Of a DNA stretch of 44,330 bases, positions 13,857-39,573 are shown one piece after another (the first letter of the stretch is position 1; every line of letters begins with the position of its first letter). The position numbers and the translations under genes were made by a program. Source of the DNA: Methanothermococcus sp. (lineage in GTDB: Archaea; AGJL01; Methanococci; Methanococcales; Methanococcaceae); assembly GCF_015523155.1 (NCBI RefSeq), contig NZ_WAKW01000072.1, forward strand, positions 1 to 44,330, given 5' to 3'. A model generated the notes under the pieces. It was not told the origin of the DNA. It saw only the letters and a list, made by a program, of their open reading frames with translations, and ran no database searches.

Positions 13857-13964
13857 TTATGTTAATTATAATGCATTAATATAGCGATAAGATAAAAATA
13901 TTAAAAATTATCTATAAGATTTATAGAAAATATTTACATTAGAATTTAGGAGGTGAATTCAACA

Positions 13965-15296
13965 ATGTTAAGAAAATGTCTTATTATCCTATTAGCCATT
14001 CTTCTTTTAGCGTCCCCAGTTAGTGCATTCTTTTCTTTCGATTTTTCAATGTCTCAAAGTAGGGCAGTTGCAGGAGCAACAATTGCAGCTAAAACGATAG
14101 CGGATGCAATGGTTAGCAACTACATAGATGAAAACCACCCAGAATATTCAGATGCTTATACTGTTGTTTCTTTGATATTTGACCCGACTGGGAAGGTTAT
14201 TGCCAAATTATCTTCAAAAGGAGTGAAATATGCTAATGAACTCTACAAATATCTAAAGAAAGCAGATAATGGTAAAGGAATTGTAAATCCGGATGTCGCT
14301 AATAAAATATTTGATAAAGATTTGATTGAAGAATTGGCAGAGAAAGAGAGTAAAGGCTACAGCCCAAAGACAGTTGCAAAAAATACGGTTAAATTGTTGG
14401 ATGAAGGAGTTGAGCCAGAGAATATAAATAAGTTGTTTAAAGATGCAGTTAAAAATGATAAAAAACTCGGTTGGATAGATAATAGAATAGAAACCCTTGA
14501 GGAAAATGGAGTAGATATAGATACAATAAACAATATCATCAAAAACAGTGATAAACCAAATGATGCTCTTAAAAAGGCAGTAGATGAAACTAATAAGTTA
14601 TCTAAAATGGGTATTAGTAAGAATAACATAAATAAATTAACTAAAAATATCAACAATGTAGATGATTTAACTAAAATAAGAAAAACTATTGGAAAACTAA
14701 AACAAATGCTAAAAAATAAAAATAAAATATCAAAAAAGGAAATTCCTCAAGAAGAAGTTATAAATGAACTTATAGAAAAAGGCTATGATATAAATCAGAT
14801 TGTTAATGATTTAAAATTATTCAATAAATTAGAAATTATAAGGGCCAATAAATACAAAGTCAAATTATTTGCTGGAAATGTTAATGAAGGATTAGACCAT
14901 GTATGGCTAAGACATGTTATAGGATATAACCTAGAAAACGAAAAAGCTACAACGATTTTTCCAATTGGACAGAAAATAAAATATTTCAAAAATGACAGAT
15001 TAGAAGTAGAAAATATCCAACAGATTATAAATGGCCCTGAAGAATTAAAAGAAATTATTATAAAGGCAGTTGAAGACAATAAGAATAAATTTAATGGAGA
15101 GACTAAAGTAGAGTTCTCATACTATATTAAAGATAAGAATATTAGAATAAATTTGGTTTTCTTAAGGGGTAGTGATGGTAGTTATTACTTACAAACCGCT
15201 TATCCAATTAATGGAAAAGGTGTTGAAAAGTATATCCCAAATGTAGGATGGTTTAAATATAATGAAAAATCTGGCAAATGGGAAAGAATAAGGTGA
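13965..15296 (+). CDS. Secreted polymorphic toxin candidate with C-terminal nuclease-like domain (full-length locus head)
   Basis: A 443-residue protein. The start is ATG 13965, 8 nt after a perfect AGGAGGTGA; the in-frame GTG at 13953 is inside that site. Residues 1-21 are a Sec signal peptide ending VSA. A short Ala-rich part (about 30-55) is followed by an alpha-helical region (about 80-290) built of degenerate units such as EGVEPENINKLFKDA, NGVDIDTINNIIK, MGISKNNINKLTKN and KGYDINQIVNDLK. From about 297 comes a compact domain with DHVWLRH (His312, Arg316, His317), ATTIFPIGQKI, and QTAYP at 410-414. The same domain recurs at 17548-18213. HxxxRH with a terminal AYP strand resembles bacterial BECR-fold (EndoU/barnase-like) RNase toxins; this is inference. 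The next gene, 7 nt on, is the immunity candidate; its ribosome binding site overlaps the toxin stop. Confidence 0.75.
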   Translation: MLRKCLIILLAILLLASPVSAFFSFDFSMSQSRAVAGATIAAKTIADAMVSNYIDENHPEYSDAYTVVSLIFDPTGKVIAKLSSKGVKYANELYKYLKKADNGKGIVNPDVANKIFDKDLIEELAEKESKGYSPKTVAKNTVKLLDEGVEPENINKLFKDAVKNDKKLGWIDNRIETLEENGVDIDTINNIIKNSDKPNDALKKAVDETNKLSKMGISKNNINKLTKNINNVDDLTKIRKTIGKLKQMLKNKNKISKKEIPQEEVINELIEKGYDINQIVNDLKLFNKLEIIRANKYKVKLFAGNVNEGLDHVWLRHVIGYNLENEKATTIFPIGQKIKYFKNDRLEVENIQQIINGPEELKEIIIKAVEDNKNKFNGETKVEFSYYIKDKNIRINLVFLRGSDGSYYLQTAYPINGKGVEKYIPNVGWFKYNEKSGKWERIR

Positions 15297-15303
15297 ATTA
15301 TCT

Positions 15304-15894
15304 ATGAAAATCGAATTAATATATAATAAAGAAAAATATCTAAAAAATCCTGACAAAATTGATACATTATTTAAAATTGACAATAATATACTTGGTGGTA
15401 TTGTAAAGGTTGAAGAAGGTAAAATCGAAGGTGATGACTGTAATTTATATGGGTTTTTCCAAGATATTTTAATTGGTATAGCATATTTACTTAGTTTTGG
15501 GAAAAGTGATAAATATATGTCTATATCTAAAGAAGAAATAAAAGAAATTGCGAAAATATATGGATTTCCTATAAAAAATATTGATATGGCATATACTTCT
15601 TCTTTATCTTTTCCTTTTAATAAATATATTTTTGAATTTAATAAAAATAGTGATGAGATGATAATTTATTATTATAATGATATGTATATATATGATAACC
15701 ATTTGGGAAAAAAAGGAATTATCAAAATTCCTATGAAGGAGTTCGTGAAAAATATAATTAAATTAGCTGAAGATTATATAAATTTTATTAAAAAACATAA
15801 TAATATATGGAAAGAATATGAAATTAATTTTCTTGAGGATAGATTAAGAGATGTCAAAAAATATTATAAAGAGCGTTACGGTGAAGAACTGTAA
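15304..15894 (+). CDS. Immunity protein candidate, family A, cognate to the full-length toxin
   Basis: A 196-residue soluble acidic protein with no signal peptide, as expected for a cytoplasmic immunity protein. It starts 7 nt after the toxin stop, and AAGGTGA, which includes the toxin stop codon, serves as its ribosome binding site, so translation is coupled. It is clearly homologous to the protein at 18224-18844: both have a start like IELIYDKEKY, then GDDC-LYGFFQDIL-G-A-LL, YIFE, and the identical end DVKKYYKERYGEEL. That each copy follows the same kind of toxin domain (HVWLRH or HIWLRH) is the main evidence for the immunity role. I do not recognise a named immunity family. Confidence 0.7.
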   Translation: MKIELIYNKEKYLKNPDKIDTLFKIDNNILGGIVKVEEGKIEGDDCNLYGFFQDILIGIAYLLSFGKSDKYMSISKEEIKEIAKIYGFPIKNIDMAYTSSLSFPFNKYIFEFNKNSDEMIIYYYNDMYIYDNHLGKKGIIKIPMKEFVKNIIKLAEDYINFIKKHNNIWKEYEINFLEDRLRDVKKYYKERYGEEL

Positions 15895-15898
15895 ATAG

Positions 15899-16013
15899 AT
15901 TTTTCTTTTTTATTTTTAATTAGAATATTAATTTATATGTTTAAATAAATAACCTAAATAACTATGATTTAGAAAAAACAAAAGAGATTGTTAAAGAGTT
16001 AAGAGATAAAGGA
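15899..16013 (+). repeat. Cassette boundary repeat, copy 1
   Basis: Two parts. The first 46 bp (TTTTCTTTTTTATTTTTAAT, then GAATATTAATTTATATG, then TTTAAATAAA) is shared with 17501-17547 and 18851-18900; it holds an oligo-T terminator followed by a TATA-like TTTATATG. From 15948 to 16013 a 66-bp stretch is identical to 17548-17613 and encodes NNLNNYDLEKTKEIVKELRD, the start of the orphan toxin frames. Such exact identity between cassettes whose other parts differ points to recombination. Confidence 0.85.
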
Positions 16014-16547
16014 ATAAAAACTAAGACAATAAATAAACTGATAGAAAATGGATATGATATAACAAAATTCTATGAAGAATATAAAGCTGTAACGGACTCG
16101 GATCCGGTATTAATGAAAAAATTAGCAAAATATATTAATAGTTGGGATTTGGATAGAAGTAATCCATTAGACGAATCAGAAGAAGCTCAGAAATTGATTA
16201 AAGTATTTAACGCTAAGGGAATAAAAACTAAAGTGGGTTATACTGAGATAAGTGATTTCGCCGTACTTAAAGAAGGTAATAATGCATGGGGTTGGAAACA
16301 TATTATTAAGCAGAATCACCATAACCATATTAAAGACGCATTTAAACTACAAAATAACAATAAAGCAGTAATAGAATTAATCGGAGAAGCCCTACAAAAG
16401 GGTATAAAGGGTACAGATAGTAAAGGAGCAACAGTAGTTTTTTATAAACCTGCTGGTGCAAGATATTATTTAAGAGTGGTTCTAAGTAAAAATAGTCCTG
16501 GTAGTATTCAAGATGCATATCCACAAAAAAACTTTGATTTTAAATAA
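15945..16547 (+). CDS. Orphan toxin cassette B (C-terminal toxin module lacking a start codon)
   Basis: The frame is open from just after TAA 15942-15944 to the stop at 16547 but has no start codon at its head; the first ATG, at 16113, lacks a good ribosome binding site. The N-terminal part (INNLNNYDLEKTKEIVKEL, then KTINKLIENGYDITKFYEEY) is like the helical stalk of the full-length toxin. The C-terminal part has a second type of toxin domain: WGWKHIIKQNHHNHIKDAF, YYLRVVLSKNSPGS, and IQDAYP close to the end. The KHIxxNHH and AYP pattern again suggests a BECR-type nuclease. It is best read as a silent donor that could replace the toxin tip of the full-length gene, though weak translation from 16113 is possible. 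Confidence 0.65.
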   Translation: MNNLNNYDLEKTKEIVKELRDKGIKTKTINKLIENGYDITKFYEEYKAVTDSDPVLMKKLAKYINSWDLDRSNPLDESEEAQKLIKVFNAKGIKTKVGYTEISDFAVLKEGNNAWGWKHIIKQNHHNHIKDAFKLQNNNKAVIELIGEALQKGIKGTDSKGATVVFYKPAGARYYLRVVLSKNSPGSIQDAYPQKNFDFK

Positions 16548-16560
16548 TAGGGGTGAAAAA

Positions 16561-17013
16561 TTGGGAAAATATATTTATAAAGCTGAAGTGTTAAAAATTG
16601 AGCCATTATGTATAGATGAAAACTGGACTAAAGAAAAGCCAATAGATGAATACACTTACAACTACCTCGTTACTTTAAAAATTGATAATATAATCGTTCA
16701 TGCATTTACACCAACAACTTATGGGTGGCATACATCTCTGGAAGGTAAAAGTGTATATGTGTATTTTTATTTAAATAATTTTAAAGGAGAGATAATTAAA
16801 TATGATAAACATGATAAAATTATACAATTGGATCAAAATAGATTCATGTACTCAATTATTGGTAAAATCATGGAAATTTCTAAGGATACTGAAACAATCT
16901 ATGTTGATTGTGGTATTATTATAGAAACTGATTATAATTCAGAAAATGAAGAATTTAAGGAAGGAGATTTTATTTTAATTCCTGAAGGGCGATTAGATGT
17001 ATTTAGAAAATAA
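16561..17013 (+). CDS. Immunity protein candidate, family B, first paralogue
   Basis: A 150-residue protein, predicted all-beta, with no signal peptide. The start is TTG at 16561, with AGGGGTGA 6 nt upstream; an in-frame ATG at 16513 lies inside the toxin frame and has no such site. It begins LGKYIYKAEVLKIEPL and its C-terminal half has GKIMEISKDTETIYVDCGIII and FKEGDFILIPEG. The same half recurs in the next gene (GEVLDIDRKNKRLIFDCGV, LKEGDWVFIMG), so the two are paralogues. Position directly behind cassette B is the evidence for immunity. Confidence 0.65.
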   Translation: MGKYIYKAEVLKIEPLCIDENWTKEKPIDEYTYNYLVTLKIDNIIVHAFTPTTYGWHTSLEGKSVYVYFYLNNFKGEIIKYDKHDKIIQLDQNRFMYSIIGKIMEISKDTETIYVDCGIIIETDYNSENEEFKEGDFILIPEGRLDVFRK

Positions 17014-17043
17014 CTAGTCCTAAAAGAGTTTAAGGAGATATAA

Positions 17044-17487
17044 ATGGTTAAGCACACAGGTAGAGTTACTGATGTTAAAATTACTCATGGAGAGTATGAA
17101 GACATAATTTCCGAAATTTGGATGACTTTTGATATAAATGGATATGAAATAGAAGCGTTTATAGGAGAACTTCCTTCAAAAGTACCAGAAATTGGTGAAA
17201 CATGCATAGTAGATTTAGATATAATGACATTCGACTTACAAAAAGTTAATGTTCCTAAAAAACAAAAACTAATATATCAACTCACTACAAAAGATTATAT
17301 ACCTGATTATATATTAGTTGGTGAAGTATTAGATATAGATAGGAAAAATAAAAGATTAATTTTTGATTGTGGTGTTAAATTAGAATGTGATATTAAAGGA
17401 ATAAATATAGAGTCTAAAGCTAAGAAATTAAAAGAAGGGGACTGGGTATTTATAATGGGTAAGATGTATGGATACATTGAGGAATAA
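17044..17487 (+). CDS. Immunity protein candidate, family B, second paralogue
   Basis: A 147-residue all-beta protein starting MVKHTGRVTDVKITHGEYED, with AAGGAGATATAA directly upstream of its ATG. Its C-terminal half pairs with the previous gene (DCGV, KEGDW). Tandem duplication with strong divergence would give protection against two variants of toxin B, including perhaps the decayed copy at 18894-19190; this is inference. A T-rich terminator and the second boundary repeat follow. Confidence 0.6.
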   Translation: MVKHTGRVTDVKITHGEYEDIISEIWMTFDINGYEIEAFIGELPSKVPEIGETCIVDLDIMTFDLQKVNVPKKQKLIYQLTTKDYIPDYILVGEVLDIDRKNKRLIFDCGVKLECDIKGINIESKAKKLKEGDWVFIMGKMYGYIEE

Positions 17488-17500
17488 ATATTCTTATTAT

Positions 17501-17613
17501 TTTTCTTTTTATTTTTAATTGGAATAATAATTTATATATTTGAATAAAATAACCTAAATAACTATGATTTAGAAAAAACAAAAGAGATTGTTAAAGAGTT
17601 AAGAGATAAAGGA
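17501..17613 (+). repeat. Cassette boundary repeat, copy 2
   Basis: Same two-part layout as copy 1: oligo-T tract, TATA-like TTTATATA, then the 66-bp coding segment identical to 15948-16013, again right after an in-frame stop (TAA 17545-17547). After this segment the two cassettes diverge, one to toxin B and this one to toxin A. Confidence 0.85.
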
Positions 17614-18213
17614 GTTCCAGCGAAAGTAATAGATGATTTGATTAAAAAGGGAGCTTCATTAGATGACTTAGAAAAGATATCCAAAATCAATATAAAAAAT
17701 CCTAAGAAGTATTTCAAAGAGTTAGAAAAATTCTCTAAACCAGAACCAATACCAATAGATGATAAAATAACCATTAATCTAATAGCAGGAGATACCGAAA
17801 AAGGTTTAACACACATATGGTTAAGGCACATTATGGGATACGAATCTAATGAAAAAGCTACATCATTCTTCCCTATGGGTCAGACTGTAAATGGAAAGAA
17901 ATTACCTAAGATTATAGATGATGCTAATGAGTTGAAAGAGATTATTAAAAAAGCGATAGATGAAAATAAAAAGGAATTCTTTAAAGATAAAAATGACAAT
18001 CCAAAAATTAGGTATAATTACACAAAAAATGGTAAAATAATTGAAATCGTATTAATGTTCAAAAAAGATAAGACTGGAGCATATAATCTAATGACCATGT
18101 ATCCGGAAAAAGGGGAAGGAGTGTATATGTATGCTCCAAAAAAGCCAAATGAAAAATGGAAAACATGGAAAAGAAATGATAATGGGGAATTAGTTGAAAC
18201 ATGGACTAATTAA
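17548..18213 (+). CDS. Orphan toxin cassette A (second copy of the toxin domain of the full-length gene, no start codon)
   Basis: Open from TAA 17545-17547 to the stop at 18211-18213, with no ATG at its head; a TTG at 17638 has no convincing ribosome binding site. It begins with NNLNNYDLEKTKEIVKELRD, then a helical linker (KVIDDLIKKGASLDDLEKIS), and then a domain homologous to residues 297-443 of the full-length toxin: ITINLIAGDTEKGLTHIWLRH, ATSFFPMGQTV, MTMYPEKGEGVYMY. The catalytic-looking HIWLRH is intact. The immunity gene starts 10 nt after the stop. Exchange into the full-length gene by recombination in the stalk would create a new chimera with a functional tip. Confidence 0.7.
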   Translation, partial: NNLNNYDLEKTKEIVKELRDKGVPAKVIDDLIKKGASLDDLEKISKINIKNPKKYFKELEKFSKPEPIPIDDKITINLIAGDTEKGLTHIWLRHIMGYESNEKATSFFPMGQTVNGKKLPKIIDDANELKEIIKKAIDENKKEFFKDKNDNPKIRYNYTKNGKIIEIVLMFKKDKTGAYNLMTMYPEKGEGVYMYAPKKPNEKWKTWKRNDNGELVETWTN

Positions 18214-18223
18214 AGGTGGTAGT

Positions 18224-18844
18224 ATGAAATTAATAGAGTTAATCTACGATAAAGAGAAATATAGGGAAAAAATAAAAGAGAATATAGTTTCAGAAATCGA
18301 AACAATATTTAAAGTTAATGGAATGTTGTTGGGAGGAGGCTGTCTAAAATCTGAAGGAGGGATTTATGGAGATGATTGTGATTTATATGGATTCTTTCAA
18401 GATATCCTAGAGGGTTTAGCATTCTTATTAGATGAAGGAAAACATACTAGAGAACTATATTATAGGAAAAATGTTGAACATATTGTAGGATGGAATAGAT
18501 TTAAGGTGAAAAATTTTGACTTGGCTTACGGTACTAGTTTATTTTTTCGATACAATGATTATATCTTCGAACTCGATAAAGATAAAGATGAATTAATAAT
18601 CCATTACCGTAACGACCCCTTGTCATATACTGACTGTGAGAAGTATAAAGGTAAAGAAAGAGGTATCGTTAGAGTTCCTTTAAAAGATTTCACTAAAGAA
18701 ATCGTTAAGTTAGCAGAAGAATATCTTGAGTTATTGAGAAACTCAGAGATTCCAGAGGGGTATGATTTTTACATAGACGATTTACAAGAATATTTAAATG
18801 ATGTTAAAAAATACTACAAAGAAAGATATGGAGAAGAGCTATAA
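18224..18844 (+). CDS. Immunity protein candidate, family A, second copy
   Basis: A 206-residue homologue of the protein at 15304-15894, with the same end DVKKYYKERYGEEL and the shared core GDDCDLYGFFQDILEG. The ATG at 18224 follows AGGTGGTAGT; an in-frame ATG at 18194 lies within the toxin frame and is not used in my reading. Protein identity is moderate, with more divergence at the DNA level than in the boundary repeats, so the pair is old and each copy is probably specific for its own toxin variant. Confidence 0.7.
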   Translation: MKLIELIYDKEKYREKIKENIVSEIETIFKVNGMLLGGGCLKSEGGIYGDDCDLYGFFQDILEGLAFLLDEGKHTRELYYRKNVEHIVGWNRFKVKNFDLAYGTSLFFRYNDYIFELDKDKDELIIHYRNDPLSYTDCEKYKGKERGIVRVPLKDFTKEIVKLAEEYLELLRNSEIPEGYDFYIDDLQEYLNDVKKYYKERYGEEL

Positions 18845-36934: not shown

Positions 36935-37070
36935 AAATTCATTTATATATTCGGTGAAACATTTTCTAATAATTTTATTAAAATGATTGCTATTTAATCA
37001 ATGCAACTATAATAATTTCTTACCATATAATTAAATCAAGGAGATAGCATAGGCGAAATAAAAAATTTCC

Positions 37071-37231
37071 TCCTACTGTTATCACTAAAAAAACAAAAAT
37101 CGTGATAACATCTTGGGGAAACCTTCGGTTTCCTACTGTTATCACTAAAAAAAGAAAAATCGTGATAACATCTTGGGGAAACCTTCGGTTTCCTACTGTT
37201 ATCACTAAAAAAAGAAAAATCGTGATAACAT
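37071..37231 (+). repeat. Tandem 60-bp repeats ending on the response regulator start codon
   Basis: Copies at 37071-37130 and 37131-37190 differ in one base; a third, cut at 41 bp, runs 37191-37231 and supplies the ribosome binding site and the start codon. Each unit contains TGTTATCAC ... GTGATAACA (9-bp arms, 16-nt A-rich loop); the two full units also contain GGAAACC-TTC-GGTTTCC, completed by the first bases of the following copy. In the full units the sequence after GTGATAAC is ATCTTGG; in the last it is ATGG. The region 36696-37070 before it contains only AT-rich DNA and the start-stop element. Confidence 0.92.
37197..37230 (+). promoter_or_regulatory. Hairpin that would sequester the response regulator ribosome binding site
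   Basis: TGTTATCAC (37197-37205) can pair with GTGATAACA (37222-37230). The second arm contains the Shine-Dalgarno GTGAT and the first base of the ATG at 37230. Folding of the mRNA would hide the translation start. Upstream copies offer alternative partners for the same arm. A DNA operator role for the dyad is equally possible. Confidence 0.55.
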
Positions 37232-37607
37232 GGCTAAAATTCTTGTGGTTGAAGATAACAAAGACATATTGAATCTTGTGAAAATAATACTTGAAGTAAA
37301 TAATTATGAGGTTTTAACAGCACATGATGGTTATGAGGCCATAAAATTAATGGAATGTATGCCAGATTTGGTGTTGTTGGATATAATGATGCCGGGAATG
37401 AGTGGATGGGAAGTTTTAGACATTATAAGGTCAAAAAAAGAGTGGAAAAATACTCCTGTGATAGCCTTAACAGCCCTTGCTCAGGAGAAAGACATTAAAG
37501 CAGGTGTTAAAAAGCACTTAGATAATTATATCATAAAACCGTTTGAAAAAAAGGAATTGCTTGATAAAATAAACCGTGTTTTAGAAGAATATAAATTAAA
37601 TAAATAA
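37230..37607 (+). CDS. Single-domain response regulator (CheY-like receiver)
   Basis: A 125-residue receiver domain: acidic pair Glu8/Asp9 (VVEDN), phosphoacceptor Asp51 in LVLLDIMMPGMSG, Thr in ALTALAQ and Lys in YIIKPFEKKEL. No output domain follows, so it acts by protein contact or as a phosphate relay. The histidine kinase gene begins 31 bp downstream and is the likely partner. The start lies in the last copy of the 60-bp repeat. Two-component proteins are scarce in Methanococcales, so acquisition from another lineage is plausible. Confidence 0.92.
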   Translation: MAKILVVEDNKDILNLVKIILEVNNYEVLTAHDGYEAIKLMECMPDLVLLDIMMPGMSGWEVLDIIRSKKEWKNTPVIALTALAQEKDIKAGVKKHLDNYIIKPFEKKELLDKINRVLEEYKLNK

Positions 37608-37638: not shown

Positions 37639-39573
37639 ATGGGCAAATTACCCACCATAAAAAAATTTGGAACAAAATTAACAATTTATTCAATAGTTAT
37701 TGCATTAATACCCATATTGATTTTAGGGACGACATCAACGGATATTATAACAAAAACCATGAATGAACAGGCCCAGGGAAAAATAAACACTGATTTACAC
37801 ACCGCTGAAGGTTTCATGGCAGATCAAATTGATAAATTATCTACGGTATGTCAGTATTCTGCCAATTCAAAAGATACAATAACTGCACTTAAAAATAACA
37901 ATATTTCAGAATTAAAAAAAATCACCATACTGGCAAAAAAATCAGGGGGTGCTGATTTTGCAACAATATTTAACAGTGGTGGATATGTTGTGGCAAGGTC
38001 AAACAGTAATTTAACAAATGATACTGAACTCTTACCTCTTGTAAAAAAAGCACTTAATGGAAGGGGTATATCATCTATCGAAATATTGGATGAAGATACT
38101 GTAAAAAAGGAAAATCTTGAAAATAAAACCAAAATAAATATTATCAAAACAGAGGATTATGAATCAATTTCAGGAGATTCAATAATAAATAAATCCGTAG
38201 AAAAAAGAGCTCTCGCACTGGTATCCATTAAACCTATTAAGGATGATAATGGAAGTATTATTGGAGCAATAATGATATCAAAAATATTGAATAAAGACAA
38301 TTCCCTTGTGGATAAGATAAAGAAAGCTACAAATGATACTGCAACGATATTTCTTGATGGTCTTAGAATATCCACAAATGTTCAGGAGGATAATAAAAGA
38401 GCTATTGGAACCTTTGTTTCAAAGGAAGTTTATGATAAAGTTATAAAAAATGGAAAAATTTATTATGGAGGGGCTTTTGTTGTTAATGAATGGTATTTAA
38501 CTGCATATGAACCTATAAAAAATAGCAACAATGAAATTATAGGAATGTTGTATGTGGGAATGCCTAAAAAACCATTTATAGTTCTTCAAAACAGTATAAA
38601 AAACCTTATACTTGAGGTTGGAATACTGGGGCTCCTCATAGCTCTAATGGTGTCTTTTGTAATGAATAGGAAAATTACAAAACCTCTTAAAGAGTTGAAA
38701 AAAGGAGCAGAGATGATTAGTAAAGGAAATTATGATTTCAGAGTTTATGTAAATACAAACGATGAATTTGGAGAACTTGCCAAGGTATTTAATAAAATGG
38801 CTGATGAGATAAAAAAATCAAATGAGAAACTCAAAAAACAAGCGAGAGAATTGGAAAAATCTTACAATGAATTGAAAGAATTGGATAAATTAAAATCAGA
38901 CATTGTGGCAATAGTATCTCATGAATTAAGAACACCTCTAACATCAATAAAAGGATATGTAGAGCTCGTGTTGGATGGAACGATGGGGGCAATTACTGAA
39001 ACTCAGAGAAAGTGCCTTAAAATTGCAAATGAAAATATCGATAGATTAAAAAGATTAATAGATAACATGCTTGATTTATCCAAAATAGAGCGTGGAGAAT
39101 TGGAAATGCAAATGGAAAAGATAAATTTAAAAGAAATCGTAGAAAATGTTATTAGTACTTTAAAACCAATTGCAGACGAAAAAAATATTAAAATAATATG
39201 TAAAATAAATGATGTGATTATAAATGGAGATAAGGACAGAATAACTCAGGTTTTAACCAATTTAATTGAAAATGCCATAAAATTCTCACCTGTTAATGAG
39301 AAGGTAGAAATTCAGGCATTAAGAGAGGGCAACTCTATTCATATAAAAGTTATAGACAATGGTCCAGGCATACCTAAGAAAGATTTAGATAAAATATTTG
39401 ATAGATTTTATCAAGTAGATTCTCCTGCAAAACGGATAAAAGGAGGCTCTGGATTGGGTTTGGCAGTGTGTAAAAGTATTGTAGAAGCCCATGGTGGAAC
39501 TATTTGGGTAGAGAGTAGCTTGGGCAGTGGAAGTATATTCCATATAATTATTCCAGTAAAAAATTTTTATTAA
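37639..39573 (+). CDS. Membrane sensor histidine kinase (Cache-type sensor, HAMP, HisKA, HATPase_c)
   Basis: A 644-residue kinase. A helix at about 13-33 and another at about 325-345 flank an extracellular Cache-like sensor (with SGGADFATIFNSGGYVVARS and YYGGAFVVNEWYLTAYEPI, GMLYVGMPKKPF). Then come HAMP (MNRKITKPLKELKKGAEMIS), a coiled coil, HisKA with the phosphorylated His428 in IVSHELRTPLTSIKGYV, N box NLIENAIKFSP, G1 DNGPGIP and G2 GGSGLGLAV. All catalytic motifs are intact. AGGTGTAAAT precedes the ATG. It forms an operon with the receiver gene; ligand unknown. Confidence 0.93.
   Translation: MGKLPTIKKFGTKLTIYSIVIALIPILILGTTSTDIITKTMNEQAQGKINTDLHTAEGFMADQIDKLSTVCQYSANSKDTITALKNNNISELKKITILAKKSGGADFATIFNSGGYVVARSNSNLTNDTELLPLVKKALNGRGISSIEILDEDTVKKENLENKTKINIIKTEDYESISGDSIINKSVEKRALALVSIKPIKDDNGSIIGAIMISKILNKDNSLVDKIKKATNDTATIFLDGLRISTNVQEDNKRAIGTFVSKEVYDKVIKNGKIYYGGAFVVNEWYLTAYEPIKNSNNEIIGMLYVGMPKKPFIVLQNSIKNLILEVGILGLLIALMVSFVMNRKITKPLKELKKGAEMISKGNYDFRVYVNTNDEFGELAKVFNKMADEIKKSNEKLKKQARELEKSYNELKELDKLKSDIVAIVSHELRTPLTSIKGYVELVLDGTMGAITETQRKCLKIANENIDRLKRLIDNMLDLSKIERGELEMQMEKINLKEIVENVISTLKPIADEKNIKIICKINDVIINGDKDRITQVLTNLIENAIKFSPVNEKVEIQALREGNSIHIKVIDNGPGIPKKDLDKIFDRFYQVDSPAKRIKGGSGLGLAVCKSIVEAHGGTIWVESSLGSGSIFHIIIPVKNFY

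Follow-up and report, generated by a model that had tools for sequence, protein, structure and literature searches.

Tandem hairpins at the start site of a Methanothermococcus response regulator gene and their dispersed relatives: a possible two-state translational leader

Our analysis of a 44,330-nucleotide stretch of Methanothermococcus DNA (the window) indicates that the tandem repeat preceding a response regulator gene consists of three copies of a small leader element, which is also dispersed before unrelated genes in three congeneric methanogens. From its architecture, position, dispersal, species distribution and co-variation, all directly observed, we infer a switching mechanism: the element may be a default-open, two-state translational leader of a Methanothermococcus-type clade. 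Sequence comparison and folding models make this our preferred reading, held with slightly less than even confidence.

Architecture of the array

The 60-bp tandem repeat of the original prediction was confirmed by TRF (37071-37231; period 60, 2.7 copies, 99% matches, score 315) and ranked first of 23 rows in the window; its copies begin at 37071, 37131 and 37191, the first two differing by a single C/G. Also borne out were the 9-bp dyad TGTTATCAC/GTGATAACA with a 16-nt gap, found exactly three times in the window (37077-37110, 37137-37170 and 37197-37230), the overlap of its last arm with GTGATAAC and the A of the ATG, and the GGAAACC/GGTTTCC hairpins at 37117-37133 and 37177-37193. RNA spanning 37046-37260 folds with z = -7.0 relative to shuffles.

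The prediction missed that the GTGATAACA of units 2 and 3 can also pair with the next TGTTATCAC on its 3' side (Table 1), enclosing the GGAAACC/GGTTTCC stem to form one long hairpin, and that a diverged first hairpin starts further upstream, at about 37041 (weak covariance model match at 37040-37086, E 0.32). The predicted repeat unit is misframed: GTGATAAC-ATG comprises the Shine-Dalgarno (SD) site and the start codon, and the natural unit reads, 5' to 3', arm1 GTGATAACATC, inner stem, arm2 TGTTATCAC, A-rich spacer and the next start-site copy, the last of which is the true start. Arm1 is a copy of the SD site but ends in ATC where the start has ATG. Arm2, the complement of the SD-start site, can take as its partner either arm1, in a hairpin of 44-50 nt that leaves the SD open, or the true SD, which is then masked. 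K-turn and bulge-helix-bulge motifs were dropped by eye, because the signatures of these motifs are missing from the internal loop TCTG/AC.

The assignment of GTGATAAC-ATG as SD and start codon follows from the 16S 3' end of the relative G009 (GGATCACCTCC, also given as CTGGATCACCTCC) and from the usual SDs of that genome, where 275 of the 306 counted genes having a GTGA-type SD carry the GGTGAT or GGTGAA form. The response regulator is a single receiver domain, and the Cache/HAMP histidine kinase encoded downstream is its likely partner. An exact TATA consensus occurs just once in the vicinity of the array, as a weak candidate that would place all three units in the mRNA; TATA-box counts in G009 showed no clear positional peak by which transcription starts could be placed. 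The array has been seen in a single draft assembly only. Elsewhere in the window (13953-18844, plus strand) lie paralogous cassettes in which proteins that carry the HIWLRHIMGYE...FFPMGQ motif are accompanied by a partner protein; all four of the cassette proteins tested were without a Pfam match, and by eye the layout is toxin/immunity-like.

Table 1. Features of the response regulator leader and adjoining genes, in window coordinates
Feature	Position	Strand	Basis and remarks
TATA-box candidate TTTATATA	36942-36949	+	Sole exact match to the TATA consensus around the array; weak candidate
Unit 1 hairpin	37041-37085	+	Diverged left arm GAGATAGCA 37041-37049; intact arm2 TGTTATCAC 37077-37085; sequence and weak covariance model match
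Unit 1 A-rich spacer	37086-37101	+	Sequence
Unit 2 hairpin	37102-37145	+	Covariance model R1, 45.5 bits, E 7.8e-12
Unit 2 parts	37102-37110; 37117-37123 / 37127-37133; 37137-37145	+	Arm1 GTGATAACA (ATC for ATG); GGAAACC / GGTTTCC; arm2 TGTTATCAC
Unit 2 A-rich spacer	37146-37161	+	Sequence
Unit 3 hairpin	37162-37205	+	Covariance model R1, 45.5 bits; R2 (with spacer and SD), 61.7 bits
Unit 3 parts	37162-37170; 37177-37183 / 37187-37193; 37197-37205	+	Arm1; inner stem; arm2
A-rich spacer, last arm2 to SD	37206-37221	+	Sequence
SD GTGAT and spacer AAC	37222-37229	+	With 37230 pairable to arm2 37197-37205 (masked state)
Response regulator receiver-domain gene	37230-37607	+	ORF, ATG at 37230; Pfam Response_reg, E 4e-27
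Cache/HAMP histidine kinase gene	37639-39573	+	ORF, Pfam; downstream of the response regulator

Distribution and position of the element

The element occurs at 15 or more loci, before 11 different genes, in the genome of the array (G000) and two congeners (G009 and G011); the counts for G000 and G011 are lower bounds. A single unit precedes the genes for ribosomal proteins S6e (contig C22) and L18a/LX (contig C8) in G000, and the S6e element is also present in G011. Two covariance models, of the hairpin alone (R1) and of the hairpin with spacer and SD (R2), added rubredoxin (G000, G011), mtrB (G011), purB (G000, G009) and a GTPase (G000, G011) whose named relatives are from Methanothermococcus, as well as ehbP, an amidohydrolase (two tandem units), a PK_C protein and a histidine phosphatase in G009. 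Most of these other loci carry a single unit. The purB and GTPase loci mostly use the alternative SD form CGTGAAAAAATG, some with two successive hairpins, and 11 of the 15 loci form the main class used below in the test of own-gene against swapped-gene matching.

Copies have been gained or lost between species, since the element is absent from orthologous leaders: those of the response regulator in G011, G009 and other relatives, of L18a in G011 and G009, and of rubredoxin in G009. Covariance model searches of the 33 other genomes of the order (36 in total) gave no convincing copy among the matches listed, and DNA pattern scans for the element core found none in collections of genome and viral contigs from which records close to the window may be missing. 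Weak model matches in other genomes (L132-L147 except the named members; G024, G012 and G015) were attributed to chance, as they have no arm1-arm2-SD triplet at a start codon.

All elements are oriented with their gene, and in the main class arm2 lies 32-34 nt upstream of the ATG. A search of the complete G009 sequence for SD-complementary 9-mers upstream of ORFs recovered five elements, each in the direction of its gene and with its arm2 at -34, and 12 other, scattered matches without the rest of the element. Exact 9-nt triplets of the form X, revcomp(X), X occur there at three loci, each of them an element, whereas simulated genomes yielded 0-1. Four copies are internal to what appear to be operons (eIF6-L18a, mtrC-mtrB(-mtrA), desulfoferrodoxin-rubredoxin and lactamase-PK_C; co-transcription is presumed from the distances and orientation seen), and any function would therefore reside in the mRNA rather than in a promoter operator.

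Several further observations concern individual copies. Cores at three unrelated G009 loci are 97-98% identical over 44-47 nt, and purB of G000 (L196) shares with the GTPase of G011 (L192) an identical 47-nt stretch, CATAAAATC...TCTCCCGGAGGTCGAAAAAAT, that links two successive hairpins. Two G009 copies (L187, L188) have ATATG instead of ATC after arm1, creating the mini-ORF ATG CTA AAA ATC ACA GAT TTT TAG (MLKITDF). The S6e and L18a elements have inner loops that are reverse complements of each other (CCTTAGTCGG, L012 976-1035, and CCGACTAAGG, L005 4905-4985, respectively), which suggests loop inversion by recombination between palindrome arms. A second set of start-site palindromes was seen in G009 (C1 156119-156220, 209753-209850, 606400-606570 and 1267650-1267760; L208, L211, L231 and L264), with hairpin ends TATTTTC-TCCCAGAGGTC-GAAAATATG and the SD GAGGT in a loop that start-codon letters close; here too, one start copy reads ATC, and the 606 kb copies lie away from any start codon.

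Pairing, conservation and the proposed switching

Both alternative pairings of arm2 co-vary. Among seven sequences, arm1:arm2 with the inner stem had standard pairs in 99.2% of cells and 14 changes on both sides (0 of 500 shuffles; slid controls 41-61%), and the inner stem with arm2:SD had 97.7% and 12 such changes (0 of 500 shuffles), in tests that are inflated by sequence relatedness and draw on few independent events (the AAC and ATT subfamilies, AAT in ehbP and GGTGAAATT in mtrB). Arms also matched better within their own gene than after swapping, at 9.6 vs 8.7 of 10 positions for arm1:arm2 and 9.5 vs 8.7 for SD:arm2; the fractions of permutations reaching the observed values were 0 and 0.00015, respectively, a test likewise inflated by relatedness. 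The S6e hairpin of G011 is kept through G-U pairs (three changes), weak evidence for RNA over a DNA dyad. Comparison of G000 with G011 at S6e gave 86% identity for the element (50% when shuffled) and 95% for the coding start, with the 120 nt upstream of the element at shuffled level (66 vs 68%). At rubredoxin the element is 89% identical, with 78% in both the adjacent coding DNA and the upstream 120 nt, mostly the preceding gene. Such better conservation of the element than of its surroundings favours constraint, or recent exchange.

Equilibrium folding indicates which pairing would prevail. In the last unit of the array, the probability of arm2:arm1 was 0.93-0.97 vs 0.02-0.06 for arm2:SD, and in S6e of G000 upstream pairing reached 0.97-0.99 vs 0.00-0.02. 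The open arrangement won in most models of single units, and removal of arm1 raised the pairing of the SD in most leaders. At 37 C the two states were balanced or masking prevailed in L18a and in some leaders of G009, mostly with a shift to open at 60 C; L18a at 37 C and rubredoxin of G011 were mostly masked even with arm1 at equilibrium. Co-transcriptional folding would favour the local arm1:arm2 hairpins. The original prediction of a start-masking hairpin thus stands in part: arm2 can cover the SD, a potential preserved across genes as the co-variation indicates, but in a single unit this is the minority state, arm2 preferring the upstream arm1. The full three-unit array behaves differently, with the SD predicted to be 0.68-0.73 paired, largely through the first arm2, which has lost a good partner by decay of its own left arm and so reaches the SD.

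These properties suggest the following mechanism. The unit would present, in order, arm1, the short inner stem, arm2, an A-rich spacer of ~13-16 nt and the working SD with its ATG. During transcription arm1 and arm2 would close first, keeping the SD open ~16 nt downstream. Were arm1 unavailable (bound by a 30S subunit or a protein, cleaved off, bypassed by a later transcription start, or decayed), arm2 would be freed and the SD masked. In the response regulator array the decayed first arm would leave one surplus arm2, predicting lowered expression of the gene.

SD-sequestering translational leaders such as attenuators and translational riboswitches use anti-SD and anti-anti-SD strands. The element resembles them in that one strand, directly before the start codon, pairs exclusively with either the SD or an upstream arm; its leader has an SD-complementary strand and a competing upstream strand that would give the open state. 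It differs in having no recognised ligand domain, leader peptide or Rfam family, in that arm1 reproduces the start site literally, and in the dispersal of its copies, sometimes tandem, over unrelated genes. A search of Rfam 15 gave no family above its gathering threshold, the only match being snR33 (18.7 bits, threshold 45, E 0.97), and a literature search within open-access papers found no description of this element.

The two-state leader thus draws on fixed position and orientation across the three genomes, co-variation of both pairings, matching to each gene's own SD, conservation beyond the flanks, copies within apparent operons and the modelled effect of arm1 on SD pairing. Against it stand the leaders that remain mostly masked even with arm1, the S6e leaders of both species, in which the SD has drifted from arm2 and masking is weak, and target genes without a common pathway. 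Arm correction or direct-repeat recombination could likewise keep arms and SD alike, and the inverted inner loops of L18a and S6e indicate that such repeat events occur.

Competing explanations and significance

The main rival, which we consider rather unlikely though still serious, is a small mobile or self-copying palindrome (MITE- or REP-like) that lands at SD-start sites and duplicates the SD, its arms and SD being kept alike by hairpin template switching and direct-repeat recombination, with no regulatory role. Small interspersed palindromic repeats include REP (PMC3733652), pneumococcal BOX and other repeats (PMC3049150) and the BrickBuilt minisatellite-MITE (PMC4596501). The element shares their short, palindromic or repeated, dispersed and non-coding nature near genes, and like a MITE it has dispersed copies with terminal inverted repeats. 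A patchy distribution, near-identical cores at unrelated genes (the three G009 loci and the 47 nt of purB and the GTPase), the inverted inner loop, tandem units whose loss would leave a clean start site, and rubredoxin of G011, where arm1 and SD have changed together with arm2 unchanged, would all be consistent with such mobility. At most loci the core is bracketed by a direct repeat (GGTGATnnnAT or longer), as it would be by a target-site duplication, but the complement of this repeat is arm2, and which SD variant is present goes with the element subfamily. Whereas those families are general intergenic repeats, the 3' part of the element is the gene's working SD-ATG, the main-class copies share a single exact position ahead of the ATG and a single orientation, with arms matching the local SD, and orthologous copies are kept better than their flanks, at rubredoxin better even than coding DNA. 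Neither a parent transposon nor an ectopic copy of the main-class ends was found in the complete sequence of G009, the one genome of the three scanned in full.

It is improbable that the leader hairpin merely stabilises or processes the mRNA or insulates a gene within its operon, the complementarity of arm2 to the SD being a by-product of arm1 copying the SD. The predominance of arm1:arm2 in most single units, the end of the hairpin well upstream of the start codon and an inner stem that varies with compensatory changes would fit this explanation, which leaves unaccounted for why arm1 copies the gene's own SD at independent genes.

The original prediction that the last repeat masks the SD and that copy-number slippage tunes expression appears very improbable. 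Promoter or leader VNTRs can tune expression by copy number, and the array resembles them as a tandem repeat adjoining a start codon whose near-identical units could slip; the preserved arm2:SD pairing and the paired SD of the full array model also point this way. However, in the last unit taken singly arm2 prefers arm1 to the SD, most other loci have one unit only, and the array has been seen at one copy number. Unlike a VNTR unit, that of the element is a balanced hairpin, and because each brings one arm1 and one arm2, gain or loss of units alone leaves the balance unchanged. The predicted alternative, a multi-site DNA operator for a transcription regulator, has its perfect 9-bp dyads, three times over, in its favour and is rejected as the main reading, hardly credible given that the dyad sequence tracks each gene's SD (GTGATAAC, GTGATATT, GTGATAAT, GTGAAATT), the G-U pairs in S6e of G011 and the operon-internal copies.

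A bolder form of the two-state leader, which we offer as speculation, is a mobile translation-initiation module, in which the hairpin spreads and either brings along its own ribosome-binding site or makes a copy of it, arm1 serving as a decoy start (SD plus ATC). By binding this decoy, a free 30S subunit would set arm2 free to cover the real start, giving a ribosome-sensing switch captured by unrelated genes, S6e and L18a among them. If the two-state reading holds, the element would be a dispersed one that spreads in archaea as a translation start site together with its own off-switch. To our knowledge, leader-based translational control in archaea is little described. The element precedes core genes (ribosomal proteins, mtrB, ehbP and purB) of species that appear culturable, and it bears on the question of whether repeats of this small, palindromic kind act as parasites or as portable regulators.
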